A stretch of DNA of 50,290 bases, from contig NZ_ALJL01000033.1 in the NCBI RefSeq assembly GCF_000287675.1, forward strand, positions 1 to 50,290, in the 5' to 3' direction. A model generated the notes under the pieces. It was not told the origin of the DNA and ran no database searches. It saw only the letters and a list, made by a program, of their open reading frames with translations. Origin of the DNA: Lachnoanaerobaculum sp. ICM7. GTDB lineage: Bacteria > Bacillota > Clostridia > Lachnospirales > Lachnospiraceae. Below, one piece after another: positions 4,227 through 44,113 of the stretch (the stretch's first letter is position 1; every line of letters starts with the position of its first letter). The translations under genes were made by a program, and so were the position numbers.

Positions 4227-4251
4227 GGTGTGAATCAAAATTAGTCACACC
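4227..4251 (-). terminator. Possible terminator after the toxin-antitoxin pair
   Basis: GGTGTGA and TCACACC form a 7-bp inverted repeat with an 11-base loop, 60 bases past the toxin stop. The T-rich tract on the minus strand starts several bases after the stem, so termination would be weak. Confidence 0.4.
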
Positions 4252-4310
4252 ACCCCTTTCTTATGACTGTCATTTCACAACAGTCTATTTATATATTTCC
4301 CACAGTACTC

Positions 4311-4831: not shown

Positions 4832-4855
4832 AATCATCCTCCTTCCTTTAACTTT

Positions 4856-4884
4856 ATTGTATTCTATTTGCACTTGTTTGTAAA
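4856..4884 (-). promoter_or_regulatory. Promoter of the toxin-antitoxin operon
   Basis: On the minus strand TTTACA (4879-4884) and TACAAT (4856-4861) are separated by 17 bases, with the antitoxin ribosome site just downstream. Confidence 0.7.
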
Positions 4885-5022
4885 GCATTTCACTTATATT
4901 GAAAACGATAATACATCGTTTAATAAATAAAATTGTTTCTCTATAACTTTGCACTTTATTAACTTTCGACACAACTTGTCATTAGTAATAGAATTTATAA
5001 CCTGCTTATACAAAACTAAAAT

Positions 5023-16737: not shown

Positions 16738-17597
16738 TAGCCATTCTCCAGTTCTGACAGGTATCTCTTTAGAGCATCCTGCCATGAAGGCAAAAGCTCA
16801 AATCCGTTCTTTGTCAGCTTTGATTTATCCATTCTTGAGTTGTGAGGTCTCTTAGCCTTCACCGGGAAAGCATCCGAGTTCACAGGTGTAACTGCCACAT
16901 CAAGATTTGCCTGCTTAAATATCTCACAGGCAAATTCATACCAGGAACAAAGCCCCTCATTCGTAGCATGATATCTTCCGTATTTGTCGGTTAAAATCAT
17001 ATCCACCAAAAGTCTTGAAAGATCAGGAGTATATGTAGGTGATCCGATTTGATCGTTTACCACGCTTACAGCTCCTCTTTCCTTTCCGAGTCTTATCATT
17101 GTTTTTATAAAGTTGTTTCCATGAAGACCGAATACCCAAGAAATTCTTACTATAAAATATTTCTCAAGTAATTCCTCAACATATAGCTCTCCCTTATACT
17201 TTGCCATACCGTAAATATTAAGAGGTGCTCTCTTATCATCCGGCTCCCATGGTCTTTCGCCCTCTCCGTCAAATACATAGTCTGTAGAAATATACATCAT
17301 GGAAAGGTCAAGCGCCTTCGCCACCTTCGCAATATTTTTAGTACCTTCCGCATTTATCTTCGTTACAAGGGCTTCATTATCTTCCGCCGCATCCACTGCC
17401 GTATATGCCGCACAATGGATGATTGCATCAAGCTTTTTTTCACCATTGATTTTTTCTATTACTTCCTTTGTCGCCTCAGGATCCGTAATATCCAAATCGT
17501 CAATGTCTATGCCTATCGCATCAATATTTCTATTTGACAACTCGCAAAGAAGATCGCTTCCAAGCTGACCCTTTGCGCCTGTTACCAATACTCTCAT
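16737..17597 (-). CDS. rfbD: dTDP-4-dehydrorhamnose reductase
   Basis: 286 residues. It makes dTDP-L-rhamnose by NADPH-dependent reduction in the last step of the pathway. The Rossmann motif GAKGQLGSDL is at the N-terminus and the SDR catalytic YGMAKYKGE and TDYVFDGEG are present. Start overlaps the rfbB stop by one base. It needs the epimerase RfbC to make its substrate, and rfbC is not in this window. Confidence 0.95.
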   Translation of the reverse strand: MRVLVTGAKGQLGSDLLCELSNRNIDAIGIDIDDLDITDPEATKEVIEKINGEKKLDAIIHCAAYTAVDAAEDNEALVTKINAEGTKNIAKVAKALDLSMMYISTDYVFDGEGERPWEPDDKRAPLNIYGMAKYKGELYVEELLEKYFIVRISWVFGLHGNNFIKTMIRLGKERGAVSVVNDQIGSPTYTPDLSRLLVDMILTDKYGRYHATNEGLCSWYEFACEIFKQANLDVAVTPVNSDAFPVKAKRPHNSRMDKSKLTKNGFELLPSWQDALKRYLSELENG

Positions 17598-18619
17598 TAA
17601 AGTCTTTCTCCATACATATTCTCAAAATACTTTGTGTATTCACCACTGATAATATGCTCCCACCAGTCTTTATTGTTGAGATACCATTCAATAGTTTTTA
17701 CAATACCTGTATCAAATGTATACTCAGGCTTCCATCCAAGCTCAGTCTCTATCTTTGTCGGGTCTATAGCATATCTTCTGTCATGTCCCGGTCTGTCTGT
17801 TACAAACTTGATAAGGCTCTCAGGCTTCCCCAGTGCCTTAAGTATTGTCTTTACAACTTCAAGGTTTGTTCTTTCATTGTGACCTCCGATATTGTAAACT
17901 TCACCGACTCTACCCTTTCTTACTACCAGGTCGATAGCCTTACAATGGTCTGTAACATAGAGCCAGTCTCTTACATTATCACCTTTTCCGTATACAGGAA
18001 GTTCCTCATCATTAAGTGCTCTGCTTATGATAAGAGGAATAAGCTTCTCAGGGAAATGGTATGGTCCGTAGTTGTTTGAACATCTTGAAACTGTCACAGG
18101 AAGACCATATGTTCTATGGTATGCAAGTACAAAAAGGTCCGCACTTGCCTTTGATGATGAATATGGGCTTGATGTATGAAGCGGTGTCTCTTCTGTGAAG
18201 AATAAATCAGGTCTGTCAAGTGGAAGATCTCCGTATACCTCATCTGTTGATACCTGATGGTATCTCTTAATTCCGTACTGTCTGCATGCATCAAGTAAGG
18301 TTGTTGTCCCCATAACATTTGTTCTTACAAAACTCTCAGGATCTGTGATTGATCTGTCTACATGACTCTCTGCAGCAAAATTGATTACAATATCAGGCTT
18401 CTCTTCTTCAAAGAGCTTGAAGATAAATTCTCTGTCTGCAATATCGCCTTTTATAAACTTGTAATTCGGTGCATTTTCCACCGGCTTTAAAGTCTCCAGA
18501 TTTCCTGCGTATGTAAGAAGATCAAGGTTTATAATCATATCCTCAGGATATTGATTTACCATATAGTGAACAAAATTTCCGCCGATAAAGCCGGCACCGC
18601 CTGTAACAATAATTTTCAT
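17597..18619 (-). CDS. rfbB: dTDP-glucose 4,6-dehydratase
   Basis: 340 residues. It converts dTDP-glucose to dTDP-4-keto-6-deoxyglucose with bound NAD. The extended-SDR motifs GGAGFIGGNFV, FAAESHVDRSI, STDEVYGDL and the catalytic YSSSKASADL are intact. The product is a branch point: rhamnose (RfbC/RfbD) or 3-amino sugars via the FdtA-like cupin encoded at 23122-23544. The gap to rfbA upstream is 76 bases without an obvious terminator. Confidence 0.96.
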   Translation of the reverse strand: MKIIVTGGAGFIGGNFVHYMVNQYPEDMIINLDLLTYAGNLETLKPVENAPNYKFIKGDIADREFIFKLFEEEKPDIVINFAAESHVDRSITDPESFVRTNVMGTTTLLDACRQYGIKRYHQVSTDEVYGDLPLDRPDLFFTEETPLHTSSPYSSSKASADLFVLAYHRTYGLPVTVSRCSNNYGPYHFPEKLIPLIISRALNDEELPVYGKGDNVRDWLYVTDHCKAIDLVVRKGRVGEVYNIGGHNERTNLEVVKTILKALGKPESLIKFVTDRPGHDRRYAIDPTKIETELGWKPEYTFDTGIVKTIEWYLNNKDWWEHIISGEYTKYFENMYGERL

Positions 18620-18695: not shown

Positions 18696-19583
18696 CTAGT
18701 GTACATCATCTATGTACTTACCATCATATACATCTTTCAGATATTTGCCATACTGATTTTTCTTAAATATTTCATAAGCCTTTAATAGCTCTTCATCACT
18801 AATCCAACCGTTCAAATATGCTATTTCCTCTAAACAGGCAATCTTTCTGTGCTGGTGTGTCTCCATTGTATATACAAAATTGGTAGCCTCTACAAGACTC
18901 TCATGTGTTCCTGTATCAAGCCACGTAAAGCCCTTTCCAAGTAACTTTACATCAAGCTCGCCCTTTTCAAGATAGATTCTGTTAAGATCTGTAATTTCAA
19001 GTTCACCTCTGGCAGAAGGCTTTAAGTTCTTAGCATACTCCACTACATCATTGTCATAGAAATATAGACCGGTAACACAATAATTGCTCTTTGGCTTTTC
19101 AGGTTTTTCTTCTATTGAAATGGCTTTACCGTTTTTATCAAACTCTACAATACCGAATCTTTCAGGATCGTCTACATAGTATCCGAATACTGTAGCTCCC
19201 TTTGTCTTTGAAGCTGCCGATTTTAAATGATTTTTAAGCCCATGTCCATGGAAAATATTGTCACCAAGTATCATTGCCACAGGCTCATTACCTATAAAAT
19301 CCGCTCCAATAATAAATGCCTGTGCCAGTCCGTCAGGACTTGGCTGAACTGCGTACTCTAATTTAAGTCCGAATTGTGTACCGTCTCCAAGTAATTCTTT
19401 AAATCTCGGAGTATCATCCGGTGTGGAAATTATAAGTATCTCTCTAATACCTGCCTCCATCAATACGGAAATAGGATAATAAATCATCGGTTTGTCATAA
19501 ATAGGCAATAGCTGTTTTGATGTAACCTTTGTAAGCGGATATAATCTTGTGCCGCTACCACCTGCTAATATAATACCCTTCAT
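18696..19583 (-). CDS. rfbA: Glucose-1-phosphate thymidylyltransferase
   Basis: 295 residues. It activates glucose-1-phosphate with dTTP, the entry step for all dTDP-deoxysugars. The N-terminal [11 protein letters not shown] nucleotide-binding loop, [23 protein letters not shown] and [10 protein letters not shown] are all present at family positions. Good ribosome site (GTGAGGA). First gene of the operon, with a promoter about 70 bases upstream. Confidence 0.96.
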
Positions 19584-19808: not shown

Positions 19809-20930
19809 CTATATTCTACAAACAGTACTATTTTTTGTAATGTTCTTTCTAATACTCAAATCATTTAATATATGTGAGACTAATATAGTAAACCCTAAGC
19901 ATATTACAAATCTTGTCCAACTGTTTGACAGTATAAAATGCTTATTATATAAAAACTCATTATAATATCTTATTATAATAAAATGAGTAATAAATGCAAA
20001 ACCGCTTATTTCCCCTATATAAATTACAAGCTTATTTGTCAGAAGCTTTGAAATAATACCTTTATTTAATGCAAACAGATACACTGCCATTGTAGATAAA
20101 GGTGTATACAAAAGAGTAAATTTGAAATATATACTACCCGGTACACCTATGGAATCATCATAAATCTTATTTGCAATTACTGTTAAGACCAAAATCAGAA
20201 CTTCAACAGCGCTTATAAAAATACCGAAATATGGTTTAGATAAAGAATCAAATAGACACTTTTTATTTATAAATATATATCCTATCACCATTCCTATATA
20301 AAAATCTCCAATTCTGTATATAGGCATTATATAAGTAACCCACTTTGCTATTTCTTCTGTAGCATTTAGTCTCCCTAATATAATTCCAACTACAATTTGT
20401 ACAGATAAAATCATGGATATTTTTATAAACGACACAAAAATTGAATTGTATTTCTTTACTCTGTTTATAATATACGGAAACATAAAGTATAAAAATAAAC
20501 TTGTAGAAAGATACCACGAGACTCCATTAAGAGAAAAAAATATATTTTGATCAGGCATCCAAGATTGCATTAAAAATGTATTCAAAACTATTCTTTCATA
20601 AATATCTCTCACATTATTAGGTGCTATATAATCAAAATACATATACACCTCTATCACTACAGCAAGTATCATAGTGATAATATGAAGCAGATACAATTTC
20701 TTTATTTTTCTGAATGCAAATAATATATTCTTTTCAAAACCTGATTCCAAATTTCTGTTCCTATAAGCATAAAACATTATAAATCCCGAAAGGATAAAAA
20801 AGACAGAAACTCCCCACACACCGATTGTAGCCCCTTCCAAATGTAATATAAAAACAGTCAAAAAAGCACAGGCTCTTAGTGACTGAATAGAGGCAATTTT
20901 ATTATCTTTCACTGAACATGTCGATTCCAA
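19809..20930 (-). CDS. Membrane acyltransferase, acyltransferase-3/OafA family
   Basis: 373 residues from a TTG start at 20930, supported by AAGGGGG seven bases upstream. About ten membrane helices. The conserved R-x10-H of this family is R19-H30 (SLRACAFLTVFILH), followed by GVWGVSVFFILSGFIMFY. Such proteins O-acylate (often O-acetylate) surface glycans during or after export. It sits alone between two strong minus-strand terminators, so it is its own transcription unit between the heptose/amino-sugar operon and the rfb operon. Its base composition is more AT-rich than the rfb genes, consistent with separate acquisition. Confidence 0.88.
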   Translation of the reverse strand: MESTCSVKDNKIASIQSLRACAFLTVFILHLEGATIGVWGVSVFFILSGFIMFYAYRNRNLESGFEKNILFAFRKIKKLYLLHIITMILAVVIEVYMYFDYIAPNNVRDIYERIVLNTFLMQSWMPDQNIFFSLNGVSWYLSTSLFLYFMFPYIINRVKKYNSIFVSFIKISMILSVQIVVGIILGRLNATEEIAKWVTYIMPIYRIGDFYIGMVIGYIFINKKCLFDSLSKPYFGIFISAVEVLILVLTVIANKIYDDSIGVPGSIYFKFTLLYTPLSTMAVYLFALNKGIISKLLTNKLVIYIGEISGFAFITHFIIIRYYNEFLYNKHFILSNSWTRFVICLGFTILVSHILNDLSIRKNITKNSTVCRI

Positions 20931-21017: not shown

Positions 21018-21671
21018 TTAACAGTAAAACTCACTTTCAAGCATTGCGCAAAGTGCATGGTATATAGGTAAATGCAGCTCCTGTACCTTATAAGTCTCCG
21101 TTTCAGGAACATGTATTATTACATCACATAATTTATCCAGCTTGCATTCCTTTTCACCTACCAAAGCCATAACCTTAAGTCCCTTTGCCTTTGCAAGCAT
21201 CGCAGCTTTGACTATATTTCTTGAATTCCCTGAAGTACTTATTCCCCAGAATAAATCTCCCTTAACTCCTATTGAGTTTAGCATCTGAGCAAACATTATA
21301 TCACTGTTTACATCATTTATTATAGCAGTTGAAAGTGATACTAAAGAAGGCAGTGGCACCGCTCTAAATCCTCCCTCAAGATCCAGACTTAGGCTCTCCC
21401 CCTCTTCACCATACATATCTTTCAATTTCTGCGCAAGATTCCCGTCTATCGGTCTCTTGGCCATAAATGATTTCATAAGCTCCCCGGCTATATGCTCACT
21501 ATCTGCAGCACTTCCACCATTACCTGCCAAGTATAAAGTATTTAGATTAACAGCCGTATCTTTCAATATATTAAACGCCTGATTTATACTATCTTTACAT
21601 ACCTCTAATGAAGGGTACCTTCTAAAGAGATTATCAAATATTTCATCTTTTTGTATGAATACATTTTGCAT
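21018..21671 (-). CDS. gmhA: Sedoheptulose-7-phosphate isomerase-like SIS protein
   Basis: 217 residues from the ATG at 21671, which has GGGAG seven bases upstream. The SIS fold motif LAGNGGSAADSEHIAGEL and the later WGISTSGNSRNIVKAA, and DVNSD and QELHLPIYHALC, are GmhA hallmarks. GmhA makes heptose-7-phosphate from sedoheptulose-7-phosphate, the entry to NDP-heptoses. It is the last gene of the operon that starts with the heptose kinase gene hddA 14 kb upstream. GmhB phosphatase and HddC nucleotidyltransferase are not seen in the window. Slightly longer than E. coli GmhA (about 192 residues), with an insertion around residues 80-100. Confidence 0.9.
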   Translation of the reverse strand: MQNVFIQKDEIFDNLFRRYPSLEVCKDSINQAFNILKDTAVNLNTLYLAGNGGSAADSEHIAGELMKSFMAKRPIDGNLAQKLKDMYGEEGESLSLDLEGGFRAVPLPSLVSLSTAIINDVNSDIMFAQMLNSIGVKGDLFWGISTSGNSRNIVKAAMLAKAKGLKVMALVGEKECKLDKLCDVIIHVPETETYKVQELHLPIYHALCAMLESEFYC

Positions 21672-21700
21672 AAACAAACTCCCTTATATATTTATATACA

Positions 21701-23107
21701 CTACTCAAAATGATCTCTACACTCTGCAATCAGTATAGTATCTGTAAGAACATTCATCATAGCCGGTCTGTATATACGAAATTGATAATTCAAATTTAGA
21801 CTCTCCAACATAGGTTTTATATCAAAGAAATCTTCTGCACTATGGTATATGCTTATAAGCAAAGTAGGTCTTTGCTCGGTAATTGTCTTCATAGCACCTT
21901 TTATCAGATTTTTCTCCGCACCTTCCACATCTGTCTTAATTAATCCAACTTTAAGAGAATTCTTTTCCACATACTCATCTATGGTGGTACAATCCACCAT
22001 AATTTCTTTCTCAGTGCCGTCTACCTGTATATATGAGCATTCATCCATAATCTCAGACTCATAAAATGTTATCTGACCGGTATAGTCTCCCAAAGCCTTG
22101 TTCTCAAGGACAATGTTTTCAAGCTTATTATATTCTATTGTCTTTTTGAAAAGTTCGTAATTATTTTCCATCGCTTCAAAAGAGTGAACCTTTTTATCTG
22201 TGTACTTTGATAAAATAAGAGCCGAATCTCCTATAAAAGCTCCTGCATCTATAATGTTATTCTGTCTGATATATTTCAGAGTTTTGAGTTCATTCATACC
22301 ATGATAGTAATATAAAACAGATGGATTGAAATAATTAATGGGCATGAAATAATTCTTATAGCAGTAAAGATCCGAGTTAAGTTCGACTATATTCTTATCA
22401 AAGTGGTCAAACATTTGCCTAAGTTCCTGCTGCTCTTCATAAGTATATATATCAACATCTCCATTGTCTAATTTGGATATTCGCCTTGCCCTGTTAATTA
22501 TTCTCTCTACAGTTTCCACACTCTCAGAATCCATATCCTTTATAAGACTCATATATTTTTCGGCAATATTTTCAAAATCCTGCATGCCCTTTACAAAGCC
22601 ATCTATAAATCTATCCTTTTCAGGTTTAAAGTTTTGATATATAACTCTGTCAAACGGAATCTGTATTCTAATCATATTTGTAGTATCAGATATAGTTTTT
22701 TGCATGCCTGCCATATCATTTATAGCAGCCTGTAAAGACTCCAGCCTTTTAATACTTGACTCAAATTCGGACTTGAAGTCCGTTTTCAAGTCCGAAAATA
22801 AATTATCGGTATTATCCTGATATAATTTCAGAGTACTATGAATTTCATTACTCTTTTCTTTCAATAACGAAATTTCATCATTTATTTCATTATATCTTTT
22901 TCCAAGCTCTTCAAAAACAGCTCTGTCTTCAAGTCTAAGTCTGTAGTTCTCTTCCAGGCTCTTATCAAGCCTTTCTATTTGCTCTTCAAGCGCCTGTCTG
23001 TTTCCGACTATTTCATCAGAAAGTTTCATCACATTCTTTTTTGAAGACGGCAATATGCTCATCAAAAAGGAATATAATTTATTTGGTTTTGATGTGTTTT
23101 CCACCAC
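21701..23107 (-). CDS. FkbM-family methyltransferase with long coiled-coil N-terminus
   Basis: 468 residues from a GTG start (two adjacent GTG codons) with AGAGG upstream. Residues about 28-145 are heptad-rich coiled coil (for example ALEEQIERLDKSLEENYRLR). Residues 150-280 are a linker domain I do not recognise. Residues 285-460 form the FkbM methyltransferase: NIIDAGAFIGDSA as the SAM-binding loop, VHSFEAMENNYELF, and IKTDVEGAEKNLIKGA. FkbM enzymes O-methylate sugars or related molecules. The coiled coil may tether it to a chain-length or export complex, an arrangement reminiscent of other capsule-modifying enzymes; that is inference. Confidence 0.85.
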   Translation of the reverse strand: MVENTSKPNKLYSFLMSILPSSKKNVMKLSDEIVGNRQALEEQIERLDKSLEENYRLRLEDRAVFEELGKRYNEINDEISLLKEKSNEIHSTLKLYQDNTDNLFSDLKTDFKSEFESSIKRLESLQAAINDMAGMQKTISDTTNMIRIQIPFDRVIYQNFKPEKDRFIDGFVKGMQDFENIAEKYMSLIKDMDSESVETVERIINRARRISKLDNGDVDIYTYEEQQELRQMFDHFDKNIVELNSDLYCYKNYFMPINYFNPSVLYYYHGMNELKTLKYIRQNNIIDAGAFIGDSALILSKYTDKKVHSFEAMENNYELFKKTIEYNKLENIVLENKALGDYTGQITFYESEIMDECSYIQVDGTEKEIMVDCTTIDEYVEKNSLKVGLIKTDVEGAEKNLIKGAMKTITEQRPTLLISIYHSAEDFFDIKPMLESLNLNYQFRIYRPAMMNVLTDTILIAECRDHFE

Positions 23108-23121: not shown

Positions 23122-23544
23122 TTAATCTTCTTCTTTTGCTATTTCTTCCACAAACTCATCATAATTTCTTATATATTCATTTGGATTGTATGCTTCACTT
23201 GCAAGCACCAATAACACTGAGTCTTCTGAGAAATCATACATATCTTTCCAAACCATGGTTGGAAGATATATTCCTGTATGAGGTCTGTTAAGAATAAATA
23301 TAGCCTCATTACCTTTTCCGTCATATACTTTTACCTTGCTTTTTCCGGCAACATTTACCAGAACAAACTCGGTTTCTCTATTTGCATGCTGTCCTCTTAT
23401 AACATTAGGATCTGAACCATAGATATAAAATATTCTTTTTATATCAAAAGGAACATCTTTATTTCCTTCAATTACTACAAGATGTCCTCTGTCATCTCCG
23501 TTCTGCTTAAAACTAAGCATCTTAACTTTATTCATATTGTGCAT
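23122..23544 (-). CDS. FdtA/QdtA-like dTDP-4-keto-6-deoxyglucose 3,4-ketoisomerase (cupin)
   Basis: 140 residues from the ATG at 23544, seven bases after AAGGAGG (an ATG at 23550 is too close). It is a single cupin of the WxcM/FdtA type: NGDDRGHLVVIE, VPFDIKRIFYIYG, RGQHANRE with the catalytic histidine, a conserved GIYLPTMVWKDMYDFS, and YIRNYDEF. FdtA/QdtA isomerise the RfbB product to the 3-keto form. The expected next enzyme, a DegT aminotransferase, is in the same operon (27839-28930). Together they predict a dTDP-3-amino-3,6-dideoxyhexose (Fuc3N or Qui3N type); the stereochemistry cannot be told by eye. Confidence 0.85.
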   Translation of the reverse strand: MHNMNKVKMLSFKQNGDDRGHLVVIEGNKDVPFDIKRIFYIYGSDPNVIRGQHANRETEFVLVNVAGKSKVKVYDGKGNEAIFILNRPHTGIYLPTMVWKDMYDFSEDSVLLVLASEAYNPNEYIRNYDEFVEEIAKEED

Positions 23545-23559
23545 AAACATACCTCCTTA

Positions 23560-24927
23560 TCACTTTTTCAATTTACCTATAAGTTTTTTCAATCCTGTAA
23601 ATGCCCATACTGCAGGCAAGAAATGGAAAGATTTTGAACCTCCGTATTGTACTATCCTTATAAACGGCAATCCAAATATAAATATGTTTTTATTTACATG
23701 CGATGTCATTGCATAAGTATATATAGGGAATCCAAACAACTTAATCTCGTAAATTATACCGCCTCTAAACTTCTCATAAATATATCTTGTTGTCCACAAA
23801 AACAGCTTACCGTTAAATGTTCTTCTGTTGAAATCCACATACTTCTGTCTGGTCATAGTTGATGCGGCTATAGCATCTCTAAACATCTCGAGATTTGATG
23901 TATGGTTCTCCACATAGTACTCATAACATTTATCACCAATCTCTTTTTTCTTTCCTTTTACATATATATCATCAAGAATCTCAGCTACAGTATGTGTTTC
24001 TATATCAAGTTCATCTATCTGGTCAGGTCCCCAACCAAGGGCATATCCCTCAGACTCATACAGATAAGAATACTTATTACATGAAAAAGGAACTGTATCA
24101 TTAGGTATAATAACCGACGGCAATTTTACGGAAGCACCATCAAGTACAGATGTTCCCATAGCAAAGAGTATATCTACCTTTTTACAGAAAAGATCAATTA
24201 TCTTTTCTATATCCATAGTCTTACATTTAATCAGCTTTATGTATGAAGGAAGCTTCTTGTTAAAAAGCATGTCTTGACAGTCACCCTCACCTATAACATA
24301 AATATTGGTCTTCACATTATCACGTGAGGCTATTATATTATCCACCAAATCTGTTACAGCAAATATTTTATCAAGTACAAGCCTTCCCAGAACAGCAATA
24401 TTTCTTTCCTTTTCCTTTACTATTTCCTGATTTACTGTTTTATCTCGTTCAGGAATAGTTATAGGTACGTATTCCTCTTTAAATTTAATGGTATCTGTGT
24501 TCTGCGCCAACAAATGTGTCTTATCAAGGAAAAACACACTGGAAGTATCTCTAACCAACTCAAGGAACTTATTAACAAATCTTGTGGTACAATGCCAGTC
24601 TCCCTTTAATACAGGTATACAGCAATTGTGCCAGTTTAAGAATACAACCTTGGAATCCGGATGCATTATCGGAACCATATGAGCCCAATAAATAACCATA
24701 ACCAATACTATCGGTTCATCCTTGAAGATTGTATATTTCTTTCCCTCGTTGTCATATATAAGAACTTCTATATCTTTATTTTTAAGCAAGGTATTTGCAA
24801 GACCGCCCTTATAATCTACATAATATACATCATATTCTTTAGTCTCTGCGATTGCATTAGCGATTCTTGTAAGGTAAAACGGCCCTCCACTTACTTCAGG
24901 CCATGGGAAATAAAATACCAGCTTCAT
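23560..24927 (-). CDS. GT-B glycosyltransferase-like protein (GT4/GT1 type)
   Basis: 455 residues from the ATG at 24927, six bases after AAAGGAG. The N-terminus KLVFYFPWPEVSGGPFYLTRIANA has the glycine-rich acceptor loop of GT-B enzymes. Around residue 190 NIAVLGRLVLDKIFAVTDLV begins a second Rossmann domain with VIGEGDC and later FAMGTSVLDGASVKLPSVI, where the usual E-x7-E region would lie. The C-terminal 80 residues (FGFPIYTYAM and similar) resemble tails seen in capsule proteins. Probably a cytoplasmic sugar transferase; donor unknown and family placement less sure than for the GT2 genes. Confidence 0.7.
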   Translation of the reverse strand: MKLVFYFPWPEVSGGPFYLTRIANAIAETKEYDVYYVDYKGGLANTLLKNKDIEVLIYDNEGKKYTIFKDEPIVLVMVIYWAHMVPIMHPDSKVVFLNWHNCCIPVLKGDWHCTTRFVNKFLELVRDTSSVFFLDKTHLLAQNTDTIKFKEEYVPITIPERDKTVNQEIVKEKERNIAVLGRLVLDKIFAVTDLVDNIIASRDNVKTNIYVIGEGDCQDMLFNKKLPSYIKLIKCKTMDIEKIIDLFCKKVDILFAMGTSVLDGASVKLPSVIIPNDTVPFSCNKYSYLYESEGYALGWGPDQIDELDIETHTVAEILDDIYVKGKKKEIGDKCYEYYVENHTSNLEMFRDAIAASTMTRQKYVDFNRRTFNGKLFLWTTRYIYEKFRGGIIYEIKLFGFPIYTYAMTSHVNKNIFIFGLPFIRIVQYGGSKSFHFLPAVWAFTGLKKLIGKLKK

Positions 24928-25001
24928 GTGCATCTCCTTTATTTACTCAAGTTTTATTTTTATATTATTTGTATTTGAAATAACTGTACAATATTTGTCG
25001 G

Positions 25002-25985
25002 CTAAATTTTTTCAACAAGCTCTATCATCTCCATATTCGGCAAAATCATAAAGCAGATTCTTGTCTTATAAAATGTGGACATAACAAGTGGTGAAATTAT
25101 TTTAGCCTTATTTGCTTTAAACAATTCTATAGCGCCTTCGATATTCTTTGTAAGATAAGCTCTATGATACATTTTATTGCCTGATGCCAGCTGTTTTGTT
25201 ACAGTGTCTCTTCCTTCAAGATTCTCTAAAAGCTCCAACTTAGGATGTCCGTCTCTTGCAAGGAAAATGCCTCGTATACCCTGAGTCTCATCCTCAAAAA
25301 TATCGGAATCCTTTCTATAACCAAGCAAAAGATAGTTCTTCATTTCTTTTTCTATATTTTTTACAGCAACTCCTATATGCTCAAACTCCAATTCTCCGAC
25401 ACTCTGCTTAATCATACGTTTATATATCATATAAGCATTATTATCTAACTTAGGCTCTACCACTTCATAGAAATTTTTTCTGTCAGAGTACTGTATTACC
25501 GAGTTGTATCTCTTACCTTCCAACTCGATCTCGTCTATAAGCACTTCTCTTGTCTTTTCTCCGATAGAAGTATGGAATGAAACCACGGCCTTATTATCCT
25601 CTATAGTATCGCAATAAAGTTCATCAAGACCTACCTGTTCAAAGGCAATCTTATAGAGCAACTTAACACTTTCCGCTGCAGCAAAAGATCCCTTTTTTAT
25701 GACCCATCTTCCCCATTCGGCCCTATTGTCAGCCACATTATAAAAGGCTATCAGACCTTCGGGTTTATTGTTAAACCTGTTCTCTACAATAAAATAATAA
25801 TCCCCTTCTCTCTCAAGGTAGTTTTTTATCCACTCCTCCTGAAGAGAAATATCCGGTGATATTTTATGTATAAATATATTTCTTTCGGCATCTTCCAGCC
25901 TTGTTTTAACTATAAATTCAGCATCTGATACCTTTACAGGTCTTAACCTGTAGCAATATCCGTCAAGAGTGCACTTATGATTCAT
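25002..25985 (-). CDS. Fusion: GNAT N-acyltransferase + VOC (glyoxalase-fold) metalloenzyme
   Basis: 327 residues. Residues 1-175 are a GNAT domain of the PseH/WecD sort (YRLRPVKVSDAEFIVKTRL, then WGRWVIKKGSFAAAESVKLLY with LYCDTIEDNKAVVSFHTSIG as the acetyl-CoA-side helix). Residues 198-327 are a VOC domain related to methylmalonyl-CoA epimerase, with the four metal ligands apparently intact: H203 (FEHIGVAV), E251 (KLELLE), H274 (YHRAY) and E322 (MIELVE). Start overlaps the ACP stop by one base (TAATG). I infer that the GNAT part N-acylates the amino sugar made by this operon using acyl-ACP, and that the VOC part acts on the acyl group or its carrier. The fusion is unusual. Confidence 0.85.
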   Translation of the reverse strand: MNHKCTLDGYCYRLRPVKVSDAEFIVKTRLEDAERNIFIHKISPDISLQEEWIKNYLEREGDYYFIVENRFNNKPEGLIAFYNVADNRAEWGRWVIKKGSFAAAESVKLLYKIAFEQVGLDELYCDTIEDNKAVVSFHTSIGEKTREVLIDEIELEGKRYNSVIQYSDRKNFYEVVEPKLDNNAYMIYKRMIKQSVGELEFEHIGVAVKNIEKEMKNYLLLGYRKDSDIFEDETQGIRGIFLARDGHPKLELLENLEGRDTVTKQLASGNKMYHRAYLTKNIEGAIELFKANKAKIISPLVMSTFYKTRICFMILPNMEMIELVEKI

Positions 25986-26209
25986 TATTCTTCCGCCTTT
26001 TTAATTGCCAACGCTATAAACTTTGCCGGTGTATTAATCTCCGGTAACTCATCTTCTTCAAATGTTATACCGTACTCATCTTCAACAGCGAACATTATTT
26101 CAACTCTGTTCAAAGAATCCCATGTATTGGCATCATCAAGTCCTGCCTCAATTACTGATACATCCTTTTTTAATACCTCTGCAATTATCTTGATTATCTC
26201 TTCTCTCAT
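25985..26209 (-). CDS. Acyl carrier protein
   Basis: 74 residues, acidic, four-helix ACP pattern. The phosphopantetheine site is S32 in TWDSLNRVEIMFAVEDEYG. It lies between the FkbH-like gene (2-base gap) and the GNAT-VOC gene (1-base overlap), so it is almost certainly the carrier for the acyl unit that FkbH loads. It is not the fatty-acid ACP by context. AAAGG ribosome site before ATG. Confidence 0.93.
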   Translation of the reverse strand: MREEIIKIIAEVLKKDVSVIEAGLDDANTWDSLNRVEIMFAVEDEYGITFEEDELPEINTPAKFIALAIKKAEE

Positions 26210-26211
26210 GA

Positions 26212-27807
26212 TTATGACCTTTCTATTATATCTATGGTTATCAAATCCTTCGGAAAATCATATTTGAATTCCTTTATGTCATCTACATATTCGCTCAAAT
26301 AAGAGTCTATGTAGTTTTTAGCAGGTGTGTTTCTTTCACCTTCTTTAAACAATACTTTTACCTTTTGTACTCCTAGTCTTTCGGTAAGCAGTTTTATGGC
26401 ACCCATAATAATGACATCATCTATGCCTCTACCCAAAGCTCTACAGCTCATAAAACATTCTTCCAGACTTATATAATCATCTGTTTTCTTACCTACACAA
26501 ACAGCAATCAAACCGCTGTCAGACAGGCAATCCTGCAATGATATACTCACTATCATGTAGTCATCAGATGCATATATATTTTCAATCTCCTGCTGAGAAT
26601 ATCTCTTATAATTAAATATAAACTGGTTTGTCTTATTGGCAAGCTCTGATATTCTCTTTAATTTTTCCTTATTGTCAAAATCATATGTGAGTTTTATTTG
26701 TAATGACCTTATATAATCTTCCTTATTCTCAACACTTGATTTCAAAAGTCTTCTTTTTTCATTGGCAATAACATCATCTTTTCTGATAGACGATTCTGCT
26801 GTAGTATTAAGAAGTAAGAGTCCCGGATAATTATCCAGTACTTCGCAAGTCTCATTTGCATCATCCTTGGCATGTATTAATTTCAACTCAGGATAAGCAA
26901 AAGCCAGTGCATTTACCTCGCCTATGTTATCATCTATCATTAATATACTGTCGATACCGATATTCAAGTATTCTGATATCTCTTTTATAGAATCTGATTT
27001 AGCCTGCCAGGATACACACATCTTTGTGAAATCTTCTCTTTTCAATTCAAAATCGGATCTCTTTTCAAGAAGTTTCTCCACATCCTCCGCCTCATTTTTT
27101 GAAGCTGCACACAGAAAAATGCCTTTCTTTGACAGTTCCTTTAAATGCTGTTGAAGTTTCTTATGTCCTTCGGTAATTTCTAAGCCGTCAATACCGTCTT
27201 CTCCCAACACTCCCTTATACAAAGTATTGTCAAAGTCCACAACCACAGCCTTTAGTGAAGGCTTTAAAATTGCCGGTATGTATCTTAAACCAAGCTCCTT
27301 TGATATTTTTAACATAGCTACATTACTCAAAGAAGTTCCTGTTACCGAAGCAACTCTTTCATCTGTAAATTTATCGCCAAGCTCGTTCTTTATATCATCC
27401 AAAGAGAATACAACTATGGAATTGTCCTCACTTTTATAATCGCATCCATAAGGTACAAGCAAAATCGATTTGCTATACATTGCCCTCAGCTGTTCAAGTC
27501 TGCCTTTTAAAAATCCGGAAAAATTATCCGTATTATATCTCTTTGCATCTACCCAAACAATAATTGCATCGGCACTTATATCAACTTCAGAGAATGAGAA
27601 GCTGTCATCATATCCACTGTATTCAAAGTTTACACCGATACCTGCATAGTCCAAATATGCTGATATCGTATGCTCCACCAATTCAAATGAATGGTTTCTG
27701 AAAACTTGGACATTGTATTTTTTGCTCAATTCACTTTCATATTCAAGTAACTTTCTTCTTGTTGCATTAGAAGAGAATATAAAGTTTTGAAGTTCAATCT
27801 TATTCAT
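26212..27807 (-). CDS. FkbH-like HAD-IIIC enzyme (glyceryl-ACP loading)
   Basis: 531 residues. Residues 1-180 resemble the N-terminal SGNH-like part of FkbH proteins. Residues 186-330 are a HAD core: DFDNTLYKGVLGEDG (nucleophile D191, D193), LCAASKNE and MIDDNIGE. The C-terminal region has ELANKTNQFIFNYKRYS and DSGLIAVCV, the FkbH signature that follows the HAD. FkbH/OzmB enzymes take 1,3-bisphosphoglycerate, form an enzyme thioester, remove the phosphate and pass glyceryl to an ACP. One difference: family members usually have Cys directly before SKN, while here that residue is Ala235 and a Cys lies at 233. The adjacent ACP supports the same reaction. Confidence 0.88.
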   Translation of the reverse strand: MNKIELQNFIFSSNATRRKLLEYESELSKKYNVQVFRNHSFELVEHTISAYLDYAGIGVNFEYSGYDDSFSFSEVDISADAIIVWVDAKRYNTDNFSGFLKGRLEQLRAMYSKSILLVPYGCDYKSEDNSIVVFSLDDIKNELGDKFTDERVASVTGTSLSNVAMLKISKELGLRYIPAILKPSLKAVVVDFDNTLYKGVLGEDGIDGLEITEGHKKLQQHLKELSKKGIFLCAASKNEAEDVEKLLEKRSDFELKREDFTKMCVSWQAKSDSIKEISEYLNIGIDSILMIDDNIGEVNALAFAYPELKLIHAKDDANETCEVLDNYPGLLLLNTTAESSIRKDDVIANEKRRLLKSSVENKEDYIRSLQIKLTYDFDNKEKLKRISELANKTNQFIFNYKRYSQQEIENIYASDDYMIVSISLQDCLSDSGLIAVCVGKKTDDYISLEECFMSCRALGRGIDDVIIMGAIKLLTERLGVQKVKVLFKEGERNTPAKNYIDSYLSEYVDDIKEFKYDFPKDLITIDIIERS

Positions 27808-27838
27808 AGTTATAATCTCCTTAACTTTATGACTTATA

Positions 27839-28930
27839 TTAATATTTATTGATCACCTCAACAACATACTTAACTTCTTCATCAGTCATTCCGTTATATA
27901 TAGGTAATGACAGCATTTCTTTCGCATACTTTTCAGTCATAGGGAAGCTACCTTCCTTTAAATTAAGGTACTCATACGCCTTTGACAAATGCGGTGGAAT
28001 AGGATAGTGGATAGTTGTTATTATCTCATTTTCCTTTAAGTATTCTTCAAAACGATCTCTTTCATCAGTTCTTACAACATACTGATGCCATACTGAAGTT
28101 GCTCCTTCCTGAAGCTCAGGCTTTATTATCTTATCGTTCTTTATATTCTTTGTATAATAGTCGGCTATACGCTCTCTTTCCTTCGCCATAGCCTCAAGAT
28201 ATCTTAATCTTACACGAAGTAATCCTGCCTGAAGCTCATCAAGTCTTGAGTTTAGACCTACTTCTTCAAAATGATATTTCACCTTGCTTCCATAATTTCT
28301 AAGCATTGCGATCTTATCTCTGAGCTCTTTATTTGATGTAAGTATTGCTCCTGCATCTCCAAAAGCTCCGAGGTTCTTTGTAGGATAGAAAGAAAAACAT
28401 CCGATGTCTCCGAATGTACCTGTCTTCTTACCGTTGTAACATGCATCATGTGACTGTGCGCAGTCCTCGACAACATATAATCCATGTTTTTTTGCAACTT
28501 CCATTACAACATCCATCTTACATGCCTGTCCGTAAAGATGTACAACCATAATAGCCTTTGTCTTAGGTGTTATTTTAGACTCAAGATCCTCTACGGAAAT
28601 ATTGTAATACTTGTTTGCCTCAACAAATACAGGTGTAGCACGATTCATTGTTATACCCATTACACTTGCAATATAGGTATTAGCCTGAACCAAAACCTCA
28701 TCACCTTCTCCAATTCCCAGTGCTCTGATAGCAAGAGCCAAAGCATCCAATCCGCTTGCAACACCCACACAGTACTCTATATTATTATGAGCGGCAAATT
28801 CCTCTTCGAAACTGCTCACTTCTTTTCCCAGTATGTACCATCCCGATCTTAAGACTTCTATGGCTTTGTCTTCATATTCTTTTTGGTGAAGCTCAAAGGC
28901 TCTGTCCAATCTTCCTGATATTACTTTCAT
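27839..28930 (-). CDS. DegT/DnrJ/EryC1/StrS aminotransferase (FdtB/QdtB-like)
   Basis: 363 residues, PLP-dependent sugar aminotransferase. Motifs: YCVGVASGLDALALA, EVLVQANTYIASVMG, VVEDCAQSHDA (D156 to PLP) and SFYPTKNLGAFGDAG with the Schiff-base K185; HYPIPPHLSKAY near the end is typical of the FdtB/QdtB branch. It would aminate the 3-keto sugar from the FdtA-like cupin, giving a dTDP-3-amino-3,6-dideoxyhexose for the GNAT-VOC protein. Its start overlaps the GT2 stop upstream by four bases. Confidence 0.92.
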   Translation of the reverse strand: MKVISGRLDRAFELHQKEYEDKAIEVLRSGWYILGKEVSSFEEEFAAHNNIEYCVGVASGLDALALAIRALGIGEGDEVLVQANTYIASVMGITMNRATPVFVEANKYYNISVEDLESKITPKTKAIMVVHLYGQACKMDVVMEVAKKHGLYVVEDCAQSHDACYNGKKTGTFGDIGCFSFYPTKNLGAFGDAGAILTSNKELRDKIAMLRNYGSKVKYHFEEVGLNSRLDELQAGLLRVRLRYLEAMAKERERIADYYTKNIKNDKIIKPELQEGATSVWHQYVVRTDERDRFEEYLKENEIITTIHYPIPPHLSKAYEYLNLKEGSFPMTEKYAKEMLSLPIYNGMTDEEVKYVVEVINKY

Positions 28931-29904
28931 TTCAATATCCTCTCTATAACAAATTTTTCAACTATGCGTTTCATAGTATATAAAGGCATTTTAATTCTGA
29001 CCATAATTTGAAGTATTATAGGCATAATACGATTATTTTCGTATCTGCTTCTTTCAATAAGATAATTGTTCAATAATCTCCTATGTCTTTTCCATGCCAT
29101 ATATTGTTTCAATATTTTTTTCGGATTTTTTGCAAATGGAGTAACCTCGTTTGCAAATATCATATCACTCTCTTCCATATACTTCAGATTACAGTTCTCT
29201 GCAGAACTCACTCCGCCACCACGATATTTTATAACGCATCTGTCAAAAAAGTGTATATGATTTCCCTCTCTCAGATATTTCAGCACAAAAGGATGGTCAT
29301 CTATCATTCTGTAACTTTCATCAAAATATCCAAACTCTTTTAGTACCGTTTTTTTTCTGGCGGTACAACATCCCAGTACAAAGTTTTCAACAGCTATCTT
29401 CTCAAATAAAGCTTCCGGACTCAATGTCTTAATCATATGTATCTGCAATACTGTTGGTGCAGTTCCATTTTCTTCCGACATTTCCGAATCATAATCCGCC
29501 CTTTTAGCTGTTATAACCTCTGCTTTTGACTTTTCAAATTCATTTATCCAGTCAGTTATTACCTGCCTGTCATAAAAACAATCATCTCCTGCCAGTGAAA
29601 ATATATATTCTCCCCTCGCATACTTAAAAGCCCGATTCATAGTTTTTACAGTTCCCAAATTACAATCATTTTGAGAAATTATAAAATCAACTATGTTTGA
29701 GGACTTATTTTGATTGATATAGTCCTCAATATCTTTTGGCGAAAATTCACTTGAGCAATCATCAATCAGTATTATTTCTATATTAGAGTAATCCTGCTCT
29801 AATACCGATTGAATTGTCAATTTCAAATCCGGACTGTTATAGCTTGGTATCAATACCGAAGCAAGCGCCCTCATTTCGCCGTCCTGATATAAGTTTATAG
29901 CCAT
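28927..29904 (-). CDS. GT2 glycosyltransferase
   Basis: 325 residues. GT-A motifs ASVLIPSYNSPD, ILIDDCSSEFS, NDCNLGTVKTMNRAF and the metal site LAGDDCFYD; RMIDDHPFVLKYL provides the catalytic acid region. C-terminal 60 residues are very basic, suggesting membrane-surface contact. Ribosome site AGAGGGA. It lies between the ABC ATPase fusion and the aminotransferase; it may transfer the acylated amino sugar, but the donor is not determinable. Confidence 0.82.
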   Translation of the reverse strand: MAINLYQDGEMRALASVLIPSYNSPDLKLTIQSVLEQDYSNIEIILIDDCSSEFSPKDIEDYINQNKSSNIVDFIISQNDCNLGTVKTMNRAFKYARGEYIFSLAGDDCFYDRQVITDWINEFEKSKAEVITAKRADYDSEMSEENGTAPTVLQIHMIKTLSPEALFEKIAVENFVLGCCTARKKTVLKEFGYFDESYRMIDDHPFVLKYLREGNHIHFFDRCVIKYRGGGVSSAENCNLKYMEESDMIFANEVTPFAKNPKKILKQYMAWKRHRRLLNNYLIERSRYENNRIMPIILQIMVRIKMPLYTMKRIVEKFVIERILK

Positions 29905-29973: not shown

Positions 29974-32277
29974 TCATTTGATATCAAATTCATCAAGAAC
30001 TTGATTAAGATAGTAAGTACCCAGGTAAAAAGCACCACTTACAAAGTCATAATCATCCCATCTGTACATGGTTGATGACAGCCATATAAGCGCATGTATA
30101 AACTTAATCGTAGCACTGTTTTCAACATTTATTCTGTCTAAGAAGTGTGATTCGAGATGTTCCCAGTTACCTGATTTAACATTTACTTCTACACTATTAT
30201 TGTTATAGTTTAATGTGAAATTACCAAGTACGAACTGATCCCAGTTACCAACTATAGACATATAAAGCTTTGCCCAATCATAATTGATATCTCCATAGTA
30301 ATCAGTCTGTCCAAAGCACCCTTGCGGATCTATCAATGTAAGTTTTTTATCTTTACCCAATATAATATTTGAGAATGTACAATCACCATGCATCAGATAA
30401 AACTTCTTGCAATTTTCCATAAGTTTTTCCTGTATTGCAAAGTATATCTCATGTCTGAGTTTGAAAGGGTTTCTACAGTCCTTACCGTTTATTTTGATCA
30501 ATTCGTCAGTGGCAAAAGGAACTATATTTTTTATAGCATCCAAACTTGAGAAAGTGCTGTTATAGTAAACATCTTTCATACTGTACATATTAACAGACTT
30601 GCTACCCTTACTATGCAGATCGTTAAGCACATCTATCAAATCATCCAAAACTTCTTTTTTTTCATCATTTCCAAGAGAAGCCTTGTATAACACATCACCA
30701 TCGATTTTTTTCATACGAATAGGGTTGTACTCATATATAGGTGGTATATTCATAAAGTTCAGATCAGCAACTTTCTGATACCATTTGGTCTCCTGTGCAG
30801 CCAATAATTTTCCAAGATCGTCTTGAGGTAATTTTACAAGTATATTATCGCTAACCTTTATCATATTAAAGGCTCTTCCCGGATAAGCACTTACATCTTC
30901 TTCATTATCTTCCTCCAGGTCTTTAAGACTTGTCACCTTTTTGGTATTCTCAAGGTCTATCGTATTAAATTTAATTTTAGACTTACTGAGATACTCTATA
31001 AATTCACCCTTTTGCGGCATATCCTCAAGTACAGACTTATCTTCAAGTAAAACACAATTCATAATGGCATTTTTATTTGTTTTCTTCTTCTCTATAATGC
31101 CCTTTTCAAATCTCCATTCACTTTCATACTTGTCGCTTGTTCCTATGGTATTTCCTGTCGTTGATTCAATCTTTACGTCATTATCCAGTACCATATTTGC
31201 ATCAATTATCAAAAATCTCTTATCCCTAGGAATATAATTAAGTGCCTTTTGGATATTTTCAATGCTGTCTTTACTGTCGGTCTTTATAGAAACAAAAGGA
31301 ACACCACCAAAAGCCTCTACATATTTTTCAATTATATCGATATTCTCATTTCCCAAAATTACATACTTTTTTTGAGGATATCTTCTCATAGTATAGAAGA
31401 TAATAGGTAATTGCTTCTTTGAGAGAAGCTCCAGCGGCTTATTTCCGTCAAACTTATCATATTTACTGTCTTCATGTACTGCAGAAACAATAACATAATC
31501 AAAGTCATCACCTTTTTTTGCAGCCTTTATATCTCCAACCATCTCTTTTATATAGCCTTCACAAACGGTAAGAGCATTGCCCTTCATCACTTCCTTACCC
31601 TTATCAAGCCATATTGCGTGGTCACAAAGTCTTCTTACCGAATTTATATCATGCGATACATATATAAGAGTTGTACCGTCTTCCAACATCTTATGCATTC
31701 TTTCCTCACACTTTTGCTGGAATGCATAATCACCTACAGACAATACCTCATCACATATAAGAATATCTGTCTTTACCATGGTAGCTATAGAAAATCCAAG
31801 TCTTGCCGCCATACCTGATGAATAGTTCTTTATAGGCATATCCAAAAAGTTTTGTAATTCGGCAAACTCCACTATCTCGTCAAAATGCTCTTCCATGAAC
31901 TTATGATCATGTCCAAGCACCGCACCGTTTAAAAATATATTCTCTCGTGCGGTAAGATCAGGATCGAAACCCGCACCAAGCTCTATCAAAGGTGCTATAC
32001 TTCCGTTTATTGTCACCTTACCCTTATAAGGCTTTAAAATTCCTGAAATAAGCTTTAGAAGAGTTGACTTTCCGGAGCCGTTTACACCTATAAGTCCCCA
32101 TGACTCTCCCTTTCTTATTTCAAATGAAATATTTTGAAGTGCAAGGAACTCTTTAAACATCAGCTCCCTTTTTACCGCTTTTATAATATACTCTTTTAAA
32201 TTGTCAATTCTTTCAGATGCCATATTAAATCTGACTGTGACATCATCAACTTTAATTATCGTTTTTTTCTCTTCCAT
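29974..32277 (-). CDS. Polysaccharide ABC-exporter ATPase fused to nucleotidyltransferase-like and kinase-like domains
   Basis: 767 residues, about twice the length of ordinary Wzt/TagH. Residues 1-247: Wzt-type ATPase with Walker A GVNGSGKST (64-72), the ELGAGFDPDLTARENI insert typical of polysaccharide exporters, signature YSSGM (152-156), Walker B ILICDE (E177) and H-loop H209. Residues 258-370: nucleotidyltransferase-like fold (KPLELLSKKQLPIIFYTMRR, FLIIDANMVLDNDV) but without the usual GxGxR loop, so probably inactive. Residues about 465-767: APH/choline-kinase-like domain with VK482, catalytic HGDCTFSN (H630-N637) and LIDPQG (D650), then NYDWAKLYMSIVG. It precedes no other ATPase gene and is 11 bases from the permease gene. 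A kinase coupled to export, perhaps capping the chain, is the obvious hypothesis. Confidence 0.87.
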   Translation of the reverse strand: MEEKKTIIKVDDVTVRFNMASERIDNLKEYIIKAVKRELMFKEFLALQNISFEIRKGESWGLIGVNGSGKSTLLKLISGILKPYKGKVTINGSIAPLIELGAGFDPDLTARENIFLNGAVLGHDHKFMEEHFDEIVEFAELQNFLDMPIKNYSSGMAARLGFSIATMVKTDILICDEVLSVGDYAFQQKCEERMHKMLEDGTTLIYVSHDINSVRRLCDHAIWLDKGKEVMKGNALTVCEGYIKEMVGDIKAAKKGDDFDYVIVSAVHEDSKYDKFDGNKPLELLSKKQLPIIFYTMRRYPQKKYVILGNENIDIIEKYVEAFGGVPFVSIKTDSKDSIENIQKALNYIPRDKRFLIIDANMVLDNDVKIESTTGNTIGTSDKYESEWRFEKGIIEKKKTNKNAIMNCVLLEDKSVLEDMPQKGEFIEYLSKSKIKFNTIDLENTKKVTSLKDLEEDNEEDVSAYPGRAFNMIKVSDNILVKLPQDDLGKLLAAQETKWYQKVADLNFMNIPPIYEYNPIRMKKIDGDVLYKASLGNDEKKEVLDDLIDVLNDLHSKGSKSVNMYSMKDVYYNSTFSSLDAIKNIVPFATDELIKINGKDCRNPFKLRHEIYFAIQEKLMENCKKFYLMHGDCTFSNIILGKDKKLTLIDPQGCFGQTDYYGDINYDWAKLYMSIVGNWDQFVLGNFTLNYNNNSVEVNVKSGNWEHLESHFLDRINVENSATIKFIHALIWLSSTMYRWDDYDFVSGAFYLGTYYLNQVLDEFDIK

Positions 32278-32288
32278 ATACCACCACT

Positions 32289-33077
32289 CTATATATAAAG
32301 TATAAATTTATCCTGTGATCCGACAAATAATAAAGTTCCAACCAAGAATGTACCTAATGACCATAAAATTCCGGAAATTATAAGACTCATATCAGGAAAT
32401 GTCTGCTGTAAAACCAAATCTCTGAACTGACTTATATATAAAAAAAGCGGATTGTATGTTCTGATACCGTTTGCCAGATATTCAGGTATTGCTGTCAAAG
32501 GATAAAATACAGGTGTTAAATACATCCATACGGTAAGTAAAGCCGCATATATATACTGAACGTCTCTGAAAAAAACATTTGCCTGAGCTATAAAAAGTCC
32601 CAGTCCCAAAGAGAATACATAAACCTGCAAAAGTACCACAGGTATAAAAAGCATAAGCGGAGTAAACTGCACCTGACATACTATGAATACTATAAGCATT
32701 GCTCCCAGAGCAAATAAGGTATTAACAAAAGAGCTTGTTATCTTTGACCATGTGAATATATATTTTGGCACATACGTCTTTTTTATCAGTGCCGCATTAC
32801 CTGTAATTGACCACATAGCCTGATTGGTTGATTCAGATACAAAACTGAATATTGTCTGTCCTATTATCAAGTAAACCGGGTAGTTTACAATGTCAAATCT
32901 GAACATATTTGAAAACACTATAACCATGATTATCATGATTATAAGAGGATTCATAATACTCCATACATATCCCAGAAAACTTCTTCTGTACTTTAACTTA
33001 ATGTCTTTTACTACCAACTGCTGAAATAAAGGGACATATTTATTATGTCGTAATACCCTCTCCTTTATACTTCCCAT
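32289..33077 (-). CDS. Polysaccharide ABC exporter permease (Wzm/TagG type)
   Basis: 262 residues with six hydrophobic helices. The cytoplasmic start FQQLVVKDIKLKYRRSFLGYVWSIMNPL is the standard amphipathic entry of Wzm/TagG permeases, and YLTPVFYPLTAIP and NPLFLYISQFRDLVLQ complete the family pattern. It pairs with the ATPase fusion encoded 11 bases downstream to export a completed glycan. The presence of an ABC exporter implies chain synthesis in the cytoplasm, distinct from the flippase route at 7-10.7 kb. Ribosome site AAGGAGAAG. Confidence 0.93.
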   Translation of the reverse strand: MGSIKERVLRHNKYVPLFQQLVVKDIKLKYRRSFLGYVWSIMNPLIIMIIMVIVFSNMFRFDIVNYPVYLIIGQTIFSFVSESTNQAMWSITGNAALIKKTYVPKYIFTWSKITSSFVNTLFALGAMLIVFIVCQVQFTPLMLFIPVVLLQVYVFSLGLGLFIAQANVFFRDVQYIYAALLTVWMYLTPVFYPLTAIPEYLANGIRTYNPLFLYISQFRDLVLQQTFPDMSLIISGILWSLGTFLVGTLLFVGSQDKFILYI

Positions 33078-42807: not shown

Positions 42808-42913
42808 ATAGGAACTATTTTATTGTTGACTAAGATGCTATAATAACTTGATATAGGGAATCGTGAGATTAAAATCAGTTTTATTCCCGGATAATCTAAT
42901 AAAAGGAGGACAT

Positions 42914-44104: not shown

Positions 44105-44113
44105 AGGTACAAA

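Follow-up and report, generated by a model that had tools for sequence, protein, structure and literature searches.

The 50,290-nucleotide contig NZ_ALJL01000033.1 of Lachnoanaerobaculum sp. ICM7 (hereafter, the window) contains a four-gene cassette that encodes: (i) a DegT-type sugar aminotransferase; (ii) an FkbH-like enzyme; (iii) an acyl carrier protein (ACP); and (iv) a protein in which a GNAT domain and a VOC domain are fused. Judged from sequence, the cassette is real, conserved in its order and functionally coherent. With a probability of about 0.6, it would synthesize an unusual N-acyl group, most likely glyceryl, through an ACP route and attach it to the dTDP-3-amino-3,6-dideoxyhexose of a surface glycan. 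The ACP-dependent N-acylation is well supported by the genetic context, and glyceryl is plausible as the acyl group.

All four genes are encoded on the minus strand and form a single operon-like series (Table 1), with a gap of 31 bp between the aminotransferase and FkbH genes, a gap of 2 bp between the FkbH and ACP genes, and an overlap of 1 bp between the ACP and GNAT-VOC genes. Spacing and profile matches thus bear out the tight coupling and the gene types given in a preliminary description of this DNA, and the catalytic lysine, the HAD motifs, the ACP serine and the GNAT domain (PF13302) that it had noticed are all present. The aminotransferase has its Lys185 in FYPTKN and is of the QdtB type: it belongs to the DegT family, its nearest relatives are 3-aminotransferases, and a 3,4-ketoisomerase gene lies in the operon. 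The attachment serine of the ACP, Ser32, sits within DSL, and this ACP is the weakest of the three PF00550 matches in the genome. A single FkbH was found in this genome; it reaches 269 bits against TIGR01686 (cut-off 146.65) and matches no Pfam family. It consists of an N-terminal domain, a HAD domain (residues ~184-333) and a C-terminal GNAT-like domain (residues ~371-513), and has all the expected motifs: DxDNT (D191, D193), SKN (S236-N238), Lys (K270), DD (D292-D293) and C-terminal SCR (C455). We take Cys455 to be the acyl-transfer cysteine.

Both halves of the fusion protein exceed their Pfam cut-offs (PF13302, 41.4 bits; PF13669, 52.4 bits against a cut-off of 27). The GNAT domain is of the FdhC type, since FdhC (PDB 5kta) is its nearest solved sequence (E 9.4e-20) and also ties as the best fold for the model; against PseH (TIGR03585) it scores 31.7 bits, below the cut-off of 93.1. 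The VOC domain belongs to its superfamily and scores 41.2 bits against methylmalonyl-CoA epimerase (TIGR03081), below the cut-off of 114.95. Its site residues H203, D232, E251, H274 and E322 are kept in 19 of 19 VOC proteins from FkbH loci; H203, E251, H274 and E322 are presumably the metal ligands.

In the sets searched, the unit recurs in one other species, from a second genus of the family (genome G205), where FdtA, aminotransferase, FkbH, ACP and GNAT-VOC genes are consecutive. Identities to the window are 39% for FdtA (94 aligned columns), 47-48% for the aminotransferase (read in two pieces, its frame being broken in the draft), 47% for FkbH, 34% for the ACP and 48% for GNAT-VOC. The search for co-occurrence that had been proposed therefore returned the four genes in the same order in a second genus. 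The place of FdtA differs between the two genomes: in the window it sits downstream, separated from GNAT-VOC by a single gene, whereas in G205 its position is upstream of the aminotransferase gene. The flanks of the five-gene set differ as well. A second FkbH-ACP-VOC locus is present in G205 (L018:13463-15941), with the FkbH frame broken in the draft.

Proteins of the window GNAT-VOC type occur in 2 of 250 family genomes, including the source genome. Besides the window, no full-length relative was found in 398 phylum genomes (three matches to the GNAT part) or in 391 class genomes (where G022 and G198 have matches confined to the GNAT part). Eight plasmid records match the GNAT part only, and none spans 80% of the query. 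Among genome contigs searched with two short and insensitive peptide patterns, there were one full-length relative, BBZO01000007.1 (that is, G205:C7), four matches to the GNAT part and one to the VOC part. A viral origin was discarded, no relative appearing among viral contigs searched with two short peptide patterns.

dTDP-3-amino-3,6-dideoxyhexoses are known to be made by ketoisomerization followed by 3-amination. With FdtA in the operon and RmlA and RmlB in the window, the sugar would hence be a dTDP-3-amino-3,6-dideoxyhexose with its amino group at C3; the preliminary description had made no use of FdtA, which sets this position. The window FdtA has Arg and Lys at the positions equivalent to QdtA Tyr17 and Arg97, which we take to bear on Qui3N versus Fuc3N stereochemistry. 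This pair of residues leaves the choice between both sugars undecided.

FkbH proteins load glyceryl from 1,3-bisphosphoglycerate onto ACPs or T domains, as the preliminary description had stated and as the literature agrees (PMC7489565, PMC8949500). In the window, the following steps can be proposed: (i) RmlA and RmlB would produce dTDP-4-keto-6-deoxyglucose; (ii) FdtA would shift the keto group to C3; (iii) the DegT enzyme would aminate the product to dTDP-3-amino-3,6-dideoxyhexose (Qui3N or Fuc3N); (iv) FkbH would accept a three-carbon acyl donor carrying a phosphate, for which 1,3-bisphosphoglycerate is the likeliest candidate, its HAD domain would remove the phosphate, and the acyl group would be handed, probably via Cys455, to the phosphopantetheine on Ser32 of the ACP; (v) the VOC domain, whose fold is common to methylmalonyl-CoA epimerase and glyoxalase I, would alter the ACP-bound alpha-hydroxy acid, the simplest reaction being a D-to-L epimerization through an enediolate; (vi) the fused GNAT domain would then transfer the acyl group onto the 3-amino group; and (vii) the acylated sugar would be built into a polysaccharide that the Wzm/Wzt transporter exports. 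The VOC enzyme is the new element and probably acts on the ACP-bound acid as a metal-dependent epimerase or isomerase; it had previously been given no role, though VOC genes recur beside FkbH. Regarding the earlier interpretation, gene content, conservation and context uphold an ACP-linked acyl donor, a dTDP-3-amino-3,6-dideoxyhexose acceptor and a surface glycan, while glyceryl is kept as the likeliest acyl group and nothing firmer, W197 and N397 of FkbH being changed.

The neighborhood of FkbH genes was surveyed in a census of 81 loci, comprising every TIGR01686 match above cut-off (72 genes from 299 family genomes and 9 from 299 phylum genomes). It includes the window, G205 and polyketide-type FkbHs; flanks extend up to 8 kb where the contig allows, and some contigs end early. 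The neighbor profiles were built in this analysis and seeded mostly from FkbH-adjacent genes, which biases them toward near matches. FkbH is present above cut-off in 63 of the 299 family genomes (some of polyketide type), and an ACP gene lies directly downstream of it in 59 of the 81 loci (on the same strand within 2.5 kb in 68). To call the pathway distinctive in this group, as the preliminary description did, is consequently too strong.

A same-strand VOC gene lies within 2.5 kb of FkbH in 17 loci and at 2.5-8 kb in none (0/81); counting both strands, which brings in L113 and L134, whose VOC genes are on the opposite strand, the values are 18 and 1. Seven of the 17 near VOCs were not seeds of the VOC profile. 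In 20 FkbH-bearing genomes (~66.5 Mb, from rounded sizes), hand-chosen and 12 of them with a known FkbH-adjacent VOC, PF13669 gave 40 matches, 13 beside FkbH and 27 unlinked; using only the latter as background, ~0.16 would be expected near 81 FkbH genes versus the 17 observed. Because different profiles were used and the genomes holding the loci are related, the size of this excess is approximate. GNAT genes were found within 2.5 kb in 14 loci (9 of them secure) and at 2.5-8 kb in 2, MaoC-like hydratase genes in 13 and 1, and short-chain dehydrogenase/reductase (SDR) genes in 11 and 2, respectively. VOC and MaoC are never both near FkbH (0/81, when ~2.7 would be expected if independent), which is only suggestive of mutual exclusion. 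A parallel module, FkbH-ACP-MaoC hydratase-SDR, occurs in L068, L079, L097, L108, L116, L125, L127, L130, L133 and L139, and might produce lactyl-ACP or an acyl-ACP processed in some other way.

Pseudaminic acid (Pse) genes are also found in this setting: according to the profiles of this analysis, PseI-, PseF- or PseG-like genes are present in 11 of the 81 loci. Among ten neighboring proteins from L103, L118, L066 and L107 compared with NCBIfam, matches above cut-off were obtained for PseI (L103, L118), PseF and PseG (L066), PseC, PseB and PseH (L107), and PseH (L118). Several of the pseudaminic-acid loci have the order FkbH-ACP-PseH-like GNAT, with or without VOC, and of the 6 PseH matches above cut-off in 250 genomes, 4 lie beside FkbH. 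L103 carries a GNAT-VOC fusion of 330 aa whose GNAT half (84.0 bits against the PseH cut-off of 93.1) groups, in trees without printed supports, with PseH-like GNATs and apart from the window GNAT; such a fusion probably arose twice, as far as these comparisons of sequences go. Whether or not VOC is present, FkbH-ACP-GNAT has the appearance of a portable module that supplies acyl donors for the N-acylation of amino sugars. On plasmid pHL2708Y3 of Maritalea myrionectae (L172), an FkbH-type HAD-IIIC gene is located between pseB and a NeuB-family gene, and adjoins a DUF4910 gene.

Several observations weigh against the glyceryl-ACP route, the first of which concerns FkbH itself. Five residues, in a list compiled here rather than taken from a published definition, are common among FkbHs: W197 (78/81), N397 (76/80), R298 (72/81), P295 (70/81) and G198 (69/81). 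The window FkbH departs at all five and its sole close relative, L016, at W197, N397, G198 and R298; in both proteins W197 is replaced by Tyr and N397 by Ile, and the NPxER motif is changed. In consequence, the acyl group may differ from glyceryl. It is unlikely, though deserving of attention, that the acid loaded or produced by FkbH along the same ACP route is some other short hydroxy acid (e.g., lactyl), so that the sugar receives a different N-acyl group. The divergence of this FkbH pair at W197 and N397 favors such an acid, as do the other FkbH-ACP loci that have a MaoC hydratase in place of VOC, frequently together with an SDR, and so imply further acyl processing, but the window FkbH retains the catalytic motifs that are common to FkbHs of one tetronate-type and one hydroxymalonyl-type gene set (types read from neighboring genes). 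This motif comparison covered FkbHs other than the Mad proteins mentioned below.

The adverse observations extend to the GNAT domain. Some of the near GNAT matches (L096, L105, L108, L128, L139) are weak (26-66 bits), have an unreliable alignment in the loop region and show no G-x-G loop, and the L096 GNAT placed 2.9 kb from FkbH does have that loop. In favor of an ACP donor, the loop is missing in all nine well-matched FkbH-linked GNATs versus 1 of 26 other PseH-like GNATs. Its loss (the G-x-G belongs to the P-loop) was nevertheless rejected as a demonstration of such a donor, FdhC and L151 being exceptions. FdhC (5kta, 5ktc) N-acylates a 3-amino-3,6-dideoxyhexose, like the role proposed for the window GNAT domain, but it has no VOC domain and, going by the PDB title from which its chemistry is taken, was solved with coenzyme A (CoA) and the 3-hydroxybutanoylamino-3,6-dideoxygalactose product, hence with an acyl-CoA donor; it also lacks the G-x-G loop. 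The PseH-like GNAT of L151 (G164:C32), which adjoins a PseF-like gene, lacks the loop too, in a short locus without FkbH or ACP and a genome for which no FkbH match is listed. Still, an ordinary acyl-CoA donor for the window GNAT, with FkbH-ACP supplying some other reaction (e.g., O-acylation, for which the acyltransferase-like membrane protein at 19809-20930 would be available), is decidedly improbable: FdhC, the nearest solved relative, argues for it, but the ACP and GNAT-VOC genes overlap by 1 bp and pseudaminic-acid loci show the FkbH-ACP-GNAT order again.

Finally, no VOC gene was found within 2.5 kb of 63 of the 81 FkbH genes on either strand (some contigs ending early), so FkbH-ACP chemistry does not need VOC, and L066, L119 and L086 are FkbH-ACP-GNAT loci without it. 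A VOC domain uninvolved in acylation, being either a passenger or a glyoxalase for general methylglyoxal detoxification, is very improbable in any case, for although its nearest solved relatives are labeled glyoxalase I or lactoylglutathione lyase, VOC is near FkbH in 17/81 loci versus 0/81 at a distance, the GNAT fusion is found in two apparently separate lineages, and those solved relatives come from Clostridium acetobutylicum, where CA_C2192 clusters with NeuB, an N-acetyltransferase, an ACP and an N-acetyltransferase+HAD protein (PMC4000134).

A broader version of the glyceryl-ACP route is tentative, at somewhat less than even odds: the VOC domain would epimerize or isomerize glyceryl-ACP at C2 before the GNAT domain transfers the acyl group to the sugar amine, and the whole would be a general, portable module through which Clostridia divert a glycolytic intermediate to their surface polysaccharides and to the nonulosonic acids of their flagella; tailoring would follow one of two alternative branches, VOC or MaoC+SDR. 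The known settings of FkbH are polyketide and peptide pathways; in this genome and in relatives, it is found within glycan clusters, beside a carrier protein. If the route is correct, it would provide (i) a genetic entry point to the unusual N-acyl groups found on polysaccharides and flagellins, groups that can influence phage or immune recognition; and (ii) a likely function for an uncharacterized VOC family with solved structures (2qh0, 3hdp).

Table 1. Coordinates in the window of the cassette and of genes from the wider glycan cluster.
Feature	Position	Strand	Evidence
DegT/DnrJ-type sugar 3-aminotransferase, 363 aa, catalytic Lys185	27839..28930	-	PF01041, 372.5 bits; best solved chains 7n63, QdtB 3frk
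FkbH-like HAD-IIIC acyl-ACP loading enzyme, 531 aa	26212..27807	-	TIGR01686
Dedicated ACP, 74 aa, Ser32	25985..26209	-	PF00550, 28.8 bits (cut-off 20.8)
GNAT sugar N-acyltransferase domain (residues ~10-175) and linker helix of GNAT-VOC fusion	25401..25985	-	PF13302, FdhC similarity, model
VOC metalloenzyme-type domain (residues ~198-327), H203, E251, H274, E322	25002..25400	-	PF13669
Possible glycosyltransferase (from appearance and place in operon)	23560..24933	-	No Pfam/NCBIfam family at E 0.001
FdtA/QdtA-type sugar 3,4-ketoisomerase	23122..23550	-	PF05523, 150 bits; QdtA and FdtA structures among best matches
FkbM-family methyltransferase	21701..23107	-	TIGR01444, 108.4 bits (cut-off 37.7)
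RmlA, dTDP-glucose synthesis	18696..19583	-	TIGR01207, 493.5 bits, above cut-off
RmlB, dTDP-glucose 4,6-dehydratase	17597..18619	-	TIGR01181, 501.3 bits, above cut-off
GT2 glycosyltransferase	28927..29904	-	PF00535, 79.7 bits; 4 bp overlap with aminotransferase gene
Wzt/Wzm-type polysaccharide ABC exporter, two genes, upstream of cassette	29974..33077	-	PF00005; best NCBIfam matches of Wzt/TagH and Wzm types, below cut-offs

Regarding the wider cluster, O-methylation of the sugar or of the acyl group by the FkbM-family methyltransferase is possible. An HddA-like sugar kinase (34137-35147) and a GmhA-like isomerase (21018-21677), both below equivalog cut-offs, suggest that the glycan contains a heptose. 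The Wzt-type ATPase (29974-32277) has a long C-terminal part with a weak APH phosphotransferase match (21.5 bits, below the cut-off of 23.2). Two neighboring plus-strand genes (42863-46024) carry choline-binding repeats, the second one with a GH25 domain, and a RelB antitoxin-like gene and a resolvase-type helix-turn-helix protein are located at the edge of the glycan cluster (3767-4972). A polyketide or non-ribosomal peptide cluster was rejected, no such synthase gene appearing among the part of the window open reading frames scanned with Pfam or NCBIfam; likewise, the methoxymalonyl/hydroxymalonyl branch has no matching dehydrogenase among the cassette genes. L098 resembles that branch by its neighbors, which differ from those of the window cassette.

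Among known systems, Mad7/Mad8 and Mad14/Mad12 (PMC7489565) also combine an FkbH with a stand-alone ACP, but pass their glyceryl-ACP on to a FabH-like enzyme or polyketide dehydrogenases, whereas in the window an amino-sugar GNAT and a VOC domain follow. In Campylobacter jejuni, Pse carries dimethylglyceric acid, which is gone without cj1295 (PMC3068675). The flagellar glycosylation locus of this species includes the fkbH-domain gene cj1302; strain 12664, where cj1302 is a pseudogene, has no dimethylglyceric-acid Pse, and strain 11168 has it (PMC7099621). To the adverse observations above must be added strain 12661, which is missing cj1301 rather than cj1302 and has no dimethylglyceric-acid Pse either (PMC7099621). 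Both papers assign dimethylglyceric acid to cj1295; the link with cj1302 is drawn by the present analysis and is a correlation over three strains, no more.

Three further systems also weaken the claim of distinctiveness. The C. acetobutylicum set CA_C2186-2199 (PMC4000134) brings together a NeuB-type synthase, a glyoxylase, an aminosugar N-acetyltransferase, an ACP and an N-acetyltransferase+HAD protein, but in a nonulosonic-acid context and as separate genes; in the available part of that paper, its only functional comment is a remark on enzymes adding acyl groups. The protein listed as glyoxylase, CA_C2192, would be the one represented by the solved structures nearest the window VOC domain. 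Pse is predicted on the flagellin of that C. acetobutylicum strain in a 2026 paper whose main text, as available, contains neither "acyl carrier" nor "glyoxalase" (PMC13317340). In the Flavobacterium psychrophilum wfpD/wfpG O-polysaccharide, a dedicated ACP and an acyltransferase are predicted to N-acylate a nucleotide amino sugar; unlike in the window, the group is 3,5-dihydroxyhexanoyl, for which ketoacyl synthases and a reductase are the proposed source, and FkbH is unmentioned in the available part of the paper (PMC6519341). The O-antigen of Pragia fontium 97U124 bears a D-glyceroyl amide on an amino sugar, but this sugar is Qui2NAc4N (PMC10609480). All in all, the cassette is a variation on known kinds of system and constitutes no new category.

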